Below, in pieces: positions 36,729 through 41,362 of a stretch of DNA of 58,898 nucleotides (position 1 is its first letter; the number at the start of each line of letters is the position of its first letter). The notes below the pieces were generated by a model, which saw nothing but the letters and a program-made list of their open reading frames with translations, searched no databases and was not told the origin of the DNA. The stretch covers positions 1 through 58,898 of the forward strand of contig JABSQK010000017.1 of the NCBI GenBank assembly GCA_013215875.1. The letters are read 5' to 3'. The translations under genes and the position numbers were made by a program. The DNA comes from Lentisphaeria bacterium (GTDB lineage Bacteria; Verrucomicrobiota; Lentisphaeria; JABSQK01).

Positions 36729-36932
36729 TCCTAAGTATGAACATTTCTAACCCGTAGAAATATTAATTAAACTTTGTTCCACTAAATGGTTCTTTATTAA
36801 ATAAAAAAAATTAAAGCGAACCATTAATGCCTTCATAGTAGATATTAACTATGGGGCCAAAATAAGCGATATCAATATAGAATAGCCTTGAAATACGATT
36901 AAGGTAATAGTTCGAATGAACCTTGGAGGAGA

Positions 36933-37811
36933 ATGAAATACCGATATATTACAGCATTTTTAGTTCTTACAGCTTTTTTCATGGCCTGCCAAAATAGAGA
37001 AAAAGAAGCAAAAACACCACTAGGTTTAGCGAATTTTCACCAGCTAAATTCACAGGTTTATAGTGGTTCGTCACCCAAAACCGAGGCAGATTTCAAGGCT
37101 CTGGCAGATTTGGGAATACGGTCAATTATCAGTGTAGATGGTGCCCATCCCAAATTGATACCCGCTAAGAAATATGGGATGAAATATGCTCATGTACCAG
37201 TGGATTATTCAGGTATTGACCGCGAAGAAGCAAAAAACATACTTGCGGCATTCCATCAATTAGAAAAACCTGTTTATATCCACTGCCACCGTGGTACACA
37301 ACGGGGGCCAACAGCTGCAATGCTGATTTTAAAACAATATTTTGAGGCTAGCCAGGAAAAAACATTAGCCCTTATGGCTGACATTGGTACATCAAAAAGC
37401 TACACGGGTCTATATAAATCGGTGGCAGAATTTAAATCCCTGACAAAACAAGAAATTGAGGCTGTAAAAGCAATTCCAGAGACCGCTAAGGTCCACGAAT
37501 TTGCCGATCGTATGGCTAAAATCGACCGTATTTGGGAGCGATTGAAAGGGATCCAAAAGGGGAAATGGAAGAAAATTGACCAAACTACAGAATTAGACGC
37601 GTCCCATGAGGTCTTATTATTGCGAGAACAATTCACTGAACTTATCCGTTTTAATAAGAAATCAGAGCTTACTGCGGGTCTTAAACATACAGAAGAATTA
37701 TTAATAAAACTGGAAGAAATCGTACTTAGAGCTTATATTCCACAGCGAGATGTCCTATATAAGAAGGTACGGCAATCCTGCATGGATTGTCATAAGAAAT
37801 ATAGAAATTAG
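36933..37811 (+). CDS. Lipoprotein fusing a Cys-phosphatase domain to a cytochrome c'-like haem domain
   Basis: The 292-aa protein has a signal peptide with lipobox-like FMAC (Cys19). Residues about 35-165 look like a dual-specificity/DUF442-type phosphatase: QVYSGSSPKTEADFKALADLGI, then a CX5R loop with Cys118 and Arg124 in IHCHRGTQRGPTAAM; D91 or D96 is a possible general acid. Residues about 190-292 are helical and end in a CMDCH haem-binding motif (283-287) directly at the C-terminus followed by KKYR, exactly the layout of cytochrome c'/c556. Both domains would be in the periplasm. An AGGAG site precedes the ATG; FHA-MoxR starts 16 bp downstream. The fusion is seen in one continuous frame. 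Substrate and redox partner unknown. Confidence 0.82.
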   Translation: MKYRYITAFLVLTAFFMACQNREKEAKTPLGLANFHQLNSQVYSGSSPKTEADFKALADLGIRSIISVDGAHPKLIPAKKYGMKYAHVPVDYSGIDREEAKNILAAFHQLEKPVYIHCHRGTQRGPTAAMLILKQYFEASQEKTLALMADIGTSKSYTGLYKSVAEFKSLTKQEIEAVKAIPETAKVHEFADRMAKIDRIWERLKGIQKGKWKKIDQTTELDASHEVLLLREQFTELIRFNKKSELTAGLKHTEELLIKLEEIVLRAYIPQRDVLYKKVRQSCMDCHKKYRN

Positions 37812-37827
37812 AATAGGTTAGTATTTT

Positions 37828-39129
37828 ATGCCAAAATTAATTGTACAGCAAGGACACTTCGAACGGGGTGAAATTGAAATTACCAAAGGTGAACTACTTA
37901 TTGGTAGAGATGATGACTGCGATATCAAAATTCCAGATGGGCAGGTTTCACGGCACCATGCCAAACTCATATTTGATGGCAAGAAAACGACCCTGGTCGA
38001 TCTTGGAAGTTACAATGGAAGCTATTTAAACTGGAATCCAATTGATGAAAAGAGCGATGTAAAACATCTCGATGTAATTCAAATAGGCAAAAATGTATTT
38101 GTTTACAATGAAGATGAAAACGTTGTAGAAATCACCGTCGATGAACAAGATGAATTTAAGACAGGTGAATTCTTTACCTTCGAATTTCTGCGAAATCTCT
38201 GTTCGAGGATTGAATTAAATGTCGCGAAAGTGTTTAAGGGTAAGGAAGATGTTATCCGTAATGTACTTGTTTGCATGCTGGCCGATGGCCATATTCTGAT
38301 AGAAGACCGGCCTGGTGTAGGCAAAAGTATCCTGGCGCAAGCATTGGCCAAATCGATAAATGGCAGCTATAAACGGATACAATTTACACCGGATATGCTA
38401 CCGAGCGATATTGTCGGAATTAGCATATACCAGGACGATACTAAAGATTTCAAATTTATCCCCGGGCCGATATTTGGTAATATCATCCTGGCAGATGAGA
38501 TTAACCGTACCACTCCACGTACACAATCGGGACTTCTGGAATGTATGAACGATGCCGTGGTAACAGTTGATGGTAAATCACAAGTATTGCCCCGGCCATT
38601 TTTTGTGATGGCGACGCAAAATCCATCAGGGCACCAGGGGACATACCCGCTTCCTGAAGCCCAGCTCGATCGATTTTTGATGAAGATTAATGTTGGCTAT
38701 CCGACGCCGGAGGTGGAATTGGAGATACTTGAAAGCCAAGCAACACGTCATCCGATAAATGATATTAGTTATGTTGCCTATGCACTCGATATTGTAAAAT
38801 GTTGTGCACTGGTCCGCAAAGTGCATGTATCCGATGCCATTAAAGATTTAATCATCAAGATCGTTAATGCAACGCGCGAACACCCCGCAGTTGTAGAGGG
38901 TGTTAGTCCTCGTGGGTCATTGGCTCTTATGCGTGCAAGCCAGGCCCTGGCGGCATATTATGGTCGCCGTTACGTAATGCCTGCGGATATCAAAGAAATC
39001 GCCATTCCTGTAATGTCACATCGTATACAAATGAAACTTCGTGCCCAGAGCGATTTTGTAAGTACAGATGATTTGGTAATGGATATCGTAAATAGCTACA
39101 GTGACGATTTCAAAGAGGAAGATAGTTGA
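37828..39129 (+). CDS. FHA domain fused to a MoxR-type AAA+ ATPase
   Basis: A 433-aa protein. Residues about 5-95 form an FHA phosphothreonine-binding domain with the conserved R27 (IGRDDDC), S41 and H44 (VSRHHAKL) and N63 (SYNGSYLN). A MoxR AAA+ domain follows: Walker A RPGVGKS near 161-167, Walker B NIILADEINR, FVMATQNPSGHQGTYPLPEAQLDRF and the C-terminal lid. MoxR proteins act as chaperone-like ATPases that often activate von Willebrand or DUF58 partners. The FHA fusion implies control by a phosphorylated protein. It overlaps the DUF58 gene by 4 bp. Confidence 0.93.
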   Translation: MPKLIVQQGHFERGEIEITKGELLIGRDDDCDIKIPDGQVSRHHAKLIFDGKKTTLVDLGSYNGSYLNWNPIDEKSDVKHLDVIQIGKNVFVYNEDENVVEITVDEQDEFKTGEFFTFEFLRNLCSRIELNVAKVFKGKEDVIRNVLVCMLADGHILIEDRPGVGKSILAQALAKSINGSYKRIQFTPDMLPSDIVGISIYQDDTKDFKFIPGPIFGNIILADEINRTTPRTQSGLLECMNDAVVTVDGKSQVLPRPFFVMATQNPSGHQGTYPLPEAQLDRFLMKINVGYPTPEVELEILESQATRHPINDISYVAYALDIVKCCALVRKVHVSDAIKDLIIKIVNATREHPAVVEGVSPRGSLALMRASQALAAYYGRRYVMPADIKEIAIPVMSHRIQMKLRAQSDFVSTDDLVMDIVNSYSDDFKEEDS

Positions 39130-40367
39130 AACTGCTGACGTATTTTACCAGTTCAGCAATTACGGGGCGGTTTATCTGGCCGACATCGCATGGTTGGGTA
39201 GCAATGCTTGTGGGATGTGGATCATTTGCAGTAACAATGGTGCATCCAGGCTTTGTCACTGCGATGTTTACATCTGTTATATTTTCAATTCTTATTTCCA
39301 GTTTCTGCATGTCATTTTTATCTCTTCATAGCATTACACTCACACGTATACCCGGGCTAGACGGACGTTTAGGTTCAGACATTTTATTACCGGCCAAAAT
39401 TACGAATCATTCAAAACGTGCCCGTCAGGCCTTGGTACTTCATGAAGATTGTGAATTTTCTGATGAAGGAAAGTCCAATTATTTTATTCCTGCATTAAAT
39501 GCCAATGAAGAACGGATTCTTAAACGAAAAGTATACGCAATTAACCGTGGTGAATTTGTTCTTTCTAAAATGATCCTCATAGGCGGCGACCCAGCCGGGC
39601 TCTTTATGCGCCAAAAATTGTTTGTTGAAGAAGAAAAAATTTATATCCTTCCGGCTTATGAAGAATTGACCCGTCTACCTTTATATTTATCGAAAAATAC
39701 GCGTGTTTCATCCACCGGACAACCCATTGGAATATCAGGCGTGGGGCAGGACTTTTACGGTGTGCGTGAATATCGTGTTAGCGATGGCATACGTTTCATC
39801 GACTGGAAAAATTCCGCCAAGCAACAAAAATTAATGGTGCGTGAATTTGAAGAAAACTCTGTTCACCAGGTGAGTATATTAGTTGACTGCGATGAAAAAT
39901 ATGCAAAATCAGGTATCGATGGAAACTTTGAATTTTTGGTTCGTATCGCAGCAAGTATTACTGAATACCTGTCTGATTTACATTGCAACCTGTTGCTAAG
40001 CTGTGGAATTGATGAGAGCGAATCTGCCGAAGGGCCTGCACAAAATATACATAATGAAGTGAGACACATACTCTCTTTGATTCAACCATCCCAAACAACC
40101 CTCTACGAACAATTGGATAAAGTCCTTTATGAAATGCCTACAGGTTCGATTCTCTATTGTCTGAGTTTGCACGAATCACCTGAATTATCAAACTTGTTTA
40201 TCACCCTGATGGACAGAAATATTGAAGTCCGTTGGATTCATGCTCCAGCAGAAAATTTTCAAGATTCATCATCTAGCGAGGATCTTGCTGCGAGCAATGC
40301 AGCCTTGCAGCCTGTCTACGTAAATCATGAAACGAAAATTCCGAATCTGCTTGATGCCATCGGCTAA
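39126..40367 (+). CDS. DUF58 family membrane-associated protein
   Basis: A 413-aa protein with two N-terminal membrane helices (about 24-42 and 44-62) followed by a beta domain and the DUF58 core, with the diagnostic YGVREYRVSDGIRFIDWKNSA (about residues 215-236) and a von Willebrand-like C-terminal half starting at VSILVDCD. The start is a TTG overlapping the MoxR stop (TTGA), the only codon that keeps the first helix intact; no ATG is available before residue 27. MoxR and DUF58 proteins are common partners; function remains unclear. Confidence 0.9.
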   Translation: MKLLTYFTSSAITGRFIWPTSHGWVAMLVGCGSFAVTMVHPGFVTAMFTSVIFSILISSFCMSFLSLHSITLTRIPGLDGRLGSDILLPAKITNHSKRARQALVLHEDCEFSDEGKSNYFIPALNANEERILKRKVYAINRGEFVLSKMILIGGDPAGLFMRQKLFVEEEKIYILPAYEELTRLPLYLSKNTRVSSTGQPIGISGVGQDFYGVREYRVSDGIRFIDWKNSAKQQKLMVREFEENSVHQVSILVDCDEKYAKSGIDGNFEFLVRIAASITEYLSDLHCNLLLSCGIDESESAEGPAQNIHNEVRHILSLIQPSQTTLYEQLDKVLYEMPTGSILYCLSLHESPELSNLFITLMDRNIEVRWIHAPAENFQDSSSSEDLAASNAALQPVYVNHETKIPNLLDAIG

Positions 40368-40404: not shown

Positions 40405-40857
40405 TTAATTAGTAATTTCCGGACAGATTTTTGTCCCACTATTGATGAAGTCTTCCCATTTAGTTTCGATATAGTCCTGTTCGTGTGCTTTTATTTTTCT
40501 GTAGCCCCGGTATTCGGGCCAGCCGTAGCCCCAGCGAAAAGATGTCGGCCAAAATGGAAATCCGCCAAGACGAACACCAATGTAGACTTTCATACCCTGC
40601 CAGAATCCAGCTTTTCCTTGAATGCATGTTTTAAGTTTTATATCGGCTTTACGGCGTTCTGACCAAGTGCCGCCGCGCCAGTATGCAATGTCATGTTGAT
40701 AGCAGCAGTCACACCAAAGATTTGGTTCGTCATCAGTTCCTTCAGGGTACATGCTGCATTTATCGCTGGTGAAACCTTCAAGATCATTTTCCGTATATGT
40801 TTTGCAGGATACAGCTAAGAGAGAAAGAAGGCCACAAAAAAGCAGAGTCTTAATCAC
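40405..40857 (-). CDS. Secreted phospholipase A2-like lipoprotein
   Basis: A 150-aa lipoprotein (signal peptide, lipobox LLAVSC at Cys18). Its centre has CDCCYQHDIAYWRGG (49-63): the PLA2 signature of paired Cys followed by catalytic His55-Asp56 and Tyr59, with AD (D72) and L-x-x-C following as in the second active-site helix. The protein is rich in Cys and Trp, consistent with an exported disulfide-bonded enzyme. Predicted to hydrolyse phospholipid sn-2 esters or act on lipid membranes. The start is GTG inside the end of msrA (8-bp overlap), so translation is coupled. Confidence 0.62.
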   Translation of the reverse strand: MIKTLLFCGLLSLLAVSCKTYTENDLEGFTSDKCSMYPEGTDDEPNLWCDCCYQHDIAYWRGGTWSERRKADIKLKTCIQGKAGFWQGMKVYIGVRLGGFPFWPTSFRWGYGWPEYRGYRKIKAHEQDYIETKWEDFINSGTKICPEITN

Positions 40858-41362
40858 CTAATTTGTCCTTAAATTTTTCCACCTTGGGGCGGATTAAATG
40901 AAAGCAGTAGGGCTGGGCCGGATTTTGATTGAAGTAATTCTGATGGTAATCCTCGGCAGGATAAAATGTTTCGACAGGCGAAATTTCGGTAACGATTGGC
41001 TCATCGTACCATGATTGGGCCAGTTCTTTTACCTGTTCTGCAGTCGCTTTTTGCTGGTCATCCGTATAATAAATGACAGACCGATATTGCGTGCCTCTAT
41101 CATTGCCCAGCTGATTTAATGTGGTGGGATCGTGGGCTTCAAAAAACAATTCCAGAATTTCTTTATACGAAACTTTTGTTTCATCGTAGTCGACACGTAC
41201 AACCTCAGCATGGCCTGTAGTGCCTGTGCAAATATCTTTGTAACTGGGATTTTCAGTCTGGCCACCTGTGTAACCAGAGACAACTGCTTCGACACCATTT
41301 CGCAATTGCAATATGGCTTCGACGCACCAAAAACAACCACCGCCAATAATTGCTGATTCCAT
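40850..41362 (-). CDS. msrA: Peptide methionine sulfoxide reductase MsrA
   Basis: A 170-aa enzyme that reduces methionine-S-sulfoxide in proteins. The catalytic Cys10 lies in the GGGCFWC motif; SGYTGG, TGTTGHAEVV, FFEAHDPTTLNQLGNDRGTQYRS and the YHQNYF motif are all in place. C-terminal resolving cysteines of longer forms appear as PYC near residue 156. No signal peptide, cytoplasmic. It is followed by an overlapping PLA2-like gene. Confidence 0.97.
   Translation of the reverse strand: MESAIIGGGCFWCVEAILQLRNGVEAVVSGYTGGQTENPSYKDICTGTTGHAEVVRVDYDETKVSYKEILELFFEAHDPTTLNQLGNDRGTQYRSVIYYTDDQQKATAEQVKELAQSWYDEPIVTEISPVETFYPAEDYHQNYFNQNPAQPYCFHLIRPKVEKFKDKLGD

Follow-up and report, generated by a model that had tools for sequence, protein, structure and literature searches.

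Closest described systems

TpbA (PA3885) of Pseudomonas aeruginosa is a periplasmic dual-specificity phosphatase with Asp105 as general acid (PMC4409338). Its nucleophile loop, HCKHGNNR, is followed by Thr (PMC4409338 and our alignment). The Siw14 inositol pyrophosphatases have a specific loop, HCxRGKHRT (PMC10653929). The protein described here belongs to a family in which a cysteine phosphatase-like domain of this kind is followed by a haem domain. Its gene was found in a stretch of 58,898 nucleotides from a Lentisphaeria bacterium, which we refer to as the window.

The family resembles TpbA in fold (TM 0.73 normalised by TpbA), in export and in the HC-x-HG-x-x-R loop, and TpbA is its top PDB profile match. 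Unlike the family, TpbA has no haem domain; further, the family loop ends in R[G/S]P whereas that of TpbA ends in RT, and the family does not consistently retain the residue at the general-acid position. With Siw14 and the PFA-DSP enzymes most family members share the P-loop HCxxGKHR, and the folds agree at a TM of about 0.7, but these enzymes are eukaryotic, have a loop that continues with Thr and carry no haem. The full Siw14/PFA-DSP loop HCxRGKHRT is not found, as the family mostly has HCHHGKHR[GS]P and the window protein HCHRGTQRGP. The DUF442 domain of Blh and TIGR01244 also has a PTP fold with CX5R and gives sub-threshold profile matches, but in Blh the fusion partner is an ETHE1 dioxygenase and not a haem domain.

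The C-terminal half is similar to class II cytochromes c (PF01322: c′, c-556), which likewise form a four-helix bundle with CXXCHxxYR at the C-terminus. It differs from them in being fused behind an enzyme domain and in having Met at the position of the distal Leu16 of cytochrome c′. Cytochrome b562 and its engineered c-type versions are the top fold matches of the bundle; b562 naturally lacks both the CXXCH motif and an enzyme domain. Its haem ligands are Met and His.

The gene and its product

The features of the gene and the genes following it are as follows.

36933..37811, + strand: whole gene, 292 amino acids plus stop, ATG start (sequence; full-length homologues)
36925..36929, + strand: Shine-Dalgarno-like GGAGG (sequence)
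36933..36989, + strand: signal peptide, residues 1-19, with a weak lipobox to Cys19 (sequence; helix 2-19 in the AlphaFold2 model)
37023..37475, + strand: DSP/TpbA-like CX5R domain, residues 31-181 (Pfam; PDB profile; Foldseek)
37209..37211, + strand: residue 93, Ser here, matching the TpbA general acid Asp105 (alignment; PMC4409338)
37281..37310, + strand: P-loop HCHRGTQRGP, residues 117-126, with nucleophile Cys118 and Arg124 (sequence; 167-member alignment)
37497..37805, + strand: four-helix bundle, class II cytochrome c domain, residues 189-291 (AlphaFold2; PF01322; cytochrome c′ profiles)
37512..37514, + strand: Met194, predicted distal haem ligand, 167/167 (MAFFT alignment; conservation)
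37779..37793, + strand: haem attachment motif CMDCH, residues 283-287, with proximal His287 (sequence; conservation)
37803..37805, + strand: Arg291, invariant, compare CXXCHxxYR of cytochrome c′ (profile matches; conservation)
37828-40367, + strand: fusion of an FHA domain and a MoxR-type AAA ATPase, then a DUF58 protein (directly downstream)

The protein has a firmly established architecture: an export signal comes first, then a DSP/TpbA-like HCX5R domain, and at the C-terminus a four-helix bundle that closes with CXXCHxxxR. An earlier note on this DNA, made from the sequence, had placed a CX5R loop and a haem motif in this frame, and both are exactly as described: HCHRGTQRGP includes Cys118 and Arg124, and CMDCHKKYRN makes up the final ten residues. 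The same note called the protein a lipoprotein. The N-terminus, MKYRYITAFLVLTAFFMACQ, is a good hydrophobic signal peptide, but the lipobox (F-M-A-C) is weak, and the lipobox pattern was matched in 29 of 85 homologues only, for which reasons a lipoprotein is possible at most.

AlphaFold2 modelling with a 79-row homologue alignment resulted in a mean pLDDT of 93.2 and a pTM of 0.85. The model consists of the strands and helices of the DSP domain, followed by helices 189–209, 223–240, 246–265 and 269–291, the last of which carries the CXXCH motif. Two separate domains, as the note had proposed, are therefore borne out. In a Foldseek search the neighbours of the whole model were DUF442, DUSP23 and TpbA, which identifies the DSP fold. 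In a mean-field coupling analysis of 283 columns (Neff 156), plausible pairs emerged within the domains and no decisive couplings between them.

Distribution and conservation of the family

A search of 99 related genomes revealed three full-length homologues with 32–34% identity, each having both motifs. A scan of GTDB contigs with the single sequence found no relatives, but the alignment of four sequences as query was successful and gave 367 candidate relatives, the best 80 of which were taken. With a 79-member profile, 160 of 392 sampled Planctomycetota genomes gave a match at E ≤ 1e-20. Of the 392, about 135 count as carriers of the family by E < ~1e-43, nearly all with matches that extend to the C-terminus of the profile; the remaining matches represent the phosphatase domain alone. 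The gene was found in 18 of 384 genomes from the class of a Pedosphaera genome, and in three of 388, the window included, in a sample of the window's own phylum.

Pooling and deduplication resulted in 167 full-length proteins from Planctomycetota, Verrucomicrobiota/Lentisphaerae and relatives. The HCX5R nucleophile loop is present in all of them (167/167). About 80 of the pooled loci came from a scan with P-loop peptide patterns; about 90 came from whole-profile genome searches in which the P-loop was not required. Seven key residues, C118, R124, M194, C283, C286, H287 and R291, are each found in 167/167 non-redundant homologues. Judged from this alignment, the occurrence of the CX5R and haem motifs in one protein is beyond chance. 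Loss of either motif in homologues, or a model lacking the bundle, would have spoken against the two-domain proposal; the AlphaFold2 bundle is present and both motifs are conserved throughout the 167 members.

Divergent members outside this set retain Met194 and CXXCH even where the P-loop drifts, for example to TCETGRDR (locus L166). Three cousins (L161–L163) have the phosphatase domain only. One of them, the planctomycete protein L163, lacks a haem motif and has two phosphatase-type domains in tandem, of which the first contains HCHHGKHRGG. Two standalone class II-like cytochromes c were seen in Zavarzinella formosa (L125, L129) and are a possible origin of the fused domain.

The cysteine domain

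Pfam models of the DSP/PTP type match the window protein (PTP-SAK, E 3.8e-7), and 66–67 of 79 family members match PTP-SAK or Tc-R-P. The best solved relative of the family profile is TpbA (PDB 2m3v, E 3.4e-11). The consensus of the P-loop is HC[HF]HG[KRQ]HR[GS]P.

In cysteine phosphatases of the DSP/PTP type, the P-loop Arg is normally followed by Ser or Thr. In the family the usual residue is mostly absent: Gly occupies this position in the window protein and in 134 of 167 members, Ser in 31. The position equivalent to Asp105 of TpbA is Asp in 119 of 167 members; the window protein has Ser93, with Asp91 two residues earlier. Conserved instead are Asp69 (166/167), His87 (166/167) and Tyr92 (167/167). 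Gly after the Arg and a non-invariant Asp105 position are both unusual for an efficient phosphatase.

Sulfur transferase models also recognise the domain below their cut-offs. The NCBIfam model for the Blh sulfur transferase/dioxygenase was matched by 71 of 79 members at E ≤ 0.01 (best 8.5e-9), and the sulfur transferase model TIGR01244 by 32 of 79. Measured against the curated cut-offs, the window protein reaches 26.1 versus 85.85 bits for TIGR01244 and 19.8 versus 625 bits for Blh.

The haem domain

PF01322 (cytochrome c′) was found in 63 of 79 members at E ≤ 0.01 (best 2.9e-9). The family profile matched cytochrome c′ structures in the PDB at E 4e-5 over its full length and at E 6e-6 when restricted to the C-terminal domain. 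With the window protein by itself, the profile check proposed by the earlier note succeeded for the first domain only: the DSP-type Pfam match has an E-value of 4e-7, whereas PF01322 scored 13.1 bits against a cut-off of 26.5. Modelled alone, the bundle reached a pLDDT of 89.5, and its Foldseek matches were dominated by cytochrome b562/BRIL and cytochrome c′ (TM 0.6–0.7) with weak E-values (0.2–1). Such values are usual for helical bundles.

The haem type was predicted by comparison with cytochrome c′ of A. xylosoxidans (sequence identical to PDB 1e83). MAFFT placed the distal Leu16 on Met194, Phe23 on Trp201 and Met26 on Leu204, so that both Met194 and Leu16 have an aromatic residue at +7 and a hydrophobic one at +10. 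In an hhalign comparison of the bundle with one cytochrome c′, the local match covers the last 50 columns, i.e. the last two helices, and a forced global alignment places helix 1 elsewhere than MAFFT does. As hhalign left helix 1 unresolved, the equivalence of Met194 and Leu16 is based on one alignment together with the exceptionless conservation of Met194.

Met at the distal position of a cytochrome c′ leads to the six-coordinate c-556 type. The haem is therefore predicted to be six-coordinate, with Met194 and His287 as ligands, and to serve in electron transfer, not in gas reception. The non-ligating distal residue of five-coordinate cytochrome c′ is not found in the alignment (Met194 in 167/167). 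The organism's own genome encodes CcsA-type and ResB-type cytochrome maturation proteins, which makes covalent c-type attachment of the haem in the host possible.

Gene context

A divergent TolC-like gene lies before the gene in the window; on its other side the FHA–MoxR ATPase gene follows after 16 bases, and the DUF58 gene comes next. ORF calls with all-against-all BLAST, carried out for 80 loci and then for 167, identified no conserved gene neighbour. MoxR/DUF58 neighbours are restricted to scattered loci (the window, L034, L075 and L196). In Pedosphaera (L044, 2600-10073) the gene is located between tauE and cysN in a cysH/cysN/sulfite-reductase/cbiX cluster (names assigned by eye); this sulfate-assimilation setting was not found in two family relatives. 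SCO/CusF-like neighbours occur at L064 and L088; SCO-type genes are located upstream at two verrucomicrobial loci, and a cytochrome oxidase cluster is nearby on a planctomycete plasmid (L287). The sulfur, SCO/CusF, cytochrome oxidase and MoxR/DUF58 contexts were each seen at few scattered loci and were for this reason dropped as clues to function.

Two further genes of the window are located on the minus strand. The first (40405-40857) encodes a 150-residue predicted lipoprotein with CDCCYQHDIAYW, resembling the CCxxHD motif of phospholipase A2-type proteins. The second (40850-41362) encodes a peptide methionine sulfoxide reductase (PF01625, 1.2e-65).

Proposed function

On balance, the family probably represents a new exported class in which a CX5R cysteine is combined with a covalent electron-transfer haem, and which either performs redox chemistry, e.g. 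on sulfane sulfur, or is switched by the respiratory chain. As best explanation we tentatively propose an exported phosphohydrolase in which the haem gates the Cys118 enzyme according to redox state. The two-domain enzyme would be exported to the periplasm or anchored in the membrane. In its TpbA-like domain, the P-loop residues Cys118 and Arg124 would bind a phosphate-like oxyanion. The haem, attached via Cys283 and Cys286, would be ligated by His287 and probably by Met194, and may exchange electrons with the respiratory cytochrome pool instead of binding a gas. In the oxidised state of the haem and Cys118 the enzyme might be inactive, and in the reduced state it might dephosphorylate an exported phospho-substrate.

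A redox-gated hydrolase is favoured because of the kinship to TpbA, the best profile relative, and because of the basic oxyanion-binding loop with the GKHR sequence shared with Siw14. Counting against a hydrolase, as far as residues can tell, are the non-invariant general acid and the Gly after the P-loop Arg, and also the lack of a conserved neighbour indicating a kinase or phospho-substrate. An electron-transfer haem, moreover, seems to fit redox catalysis as readily as gating. The main rival, which we regard as rather unlikely, is an exported sulfur oxidoreductase: Cys118 would load sulfane sulfur from thiosulfate or a persulfide, and the haem would withdraw electrons. A covalent electron carrier suits such redox chemistry, as does a general acid that is not invariant in the 167 members, and the numerous matches to the Blh and TIGR01244 models point in the same direction. 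Sulfur transferase activity has been measured for the DUF442 domain of Blh, which shares the fold and sits with a TauE transporter (PMC5823870), and the Pedosphaera gene lies next to tauE. Yet this sulfur cluster occurs at one of 167 loci, the window protein remains far under the NCBIfam cut-offs (26 versus 85.9 and 20 versus 625 bits), and one haem accounts for one electron.

The missing P-loop Ser/Thr in 134 of 167 members, the non-invariant general acid and the standalone gene would also agree with a sensor without turnover, in which the P-loop holds an oxyanion and the haem signals its redox state to a partner protein. Binding-only relatives often lose the Cys, but Cys118 and Arg124 are invariant (167/167), as for an active nucleophile, and a mere sensor is improbable. 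The earlier note proposed a periplasmic redox- or gas-sensitive phosphatase, possibly acting on a sulfide, persulfide or phospho substrate. Its gas-sensitive option would be a phosphatase that senses NO or CO through a five-coordinate cytochrome c′-type haem. The C-terminal half and its CXXCHxxYR do match cytochrome c′; the invariant Met194 at the distal site, however, predicts a blocked, six-coordinate haem, which makes gas sensing very doubtful.

Novelty and significance

Each half of the protein is of a known kind, while their fixed pairing appears to be undescribed, as the earlier note had supposed: no model in Pfam or NCBIfam spans the phosphatase–haem architecture, and nothing relevant on such a fusion was found in open-access papers. 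The chemistry may well be new, too. CX5R phosphatases are switched off by oxidation of their cysteine, and to our knowledge none has its own electron carrier. In RefSeq the members are labelled ‘dual specificity protein phosphatase’ or ‘hypothetical protein’, generic names by which public annotation masks the family. Present in about one-third of the sampled Planctomycetota, and with the key residues of both active centres invariant in 167 members, this family would provide a link between the respiratory chain and the cysteine chemistry of exported proteins.
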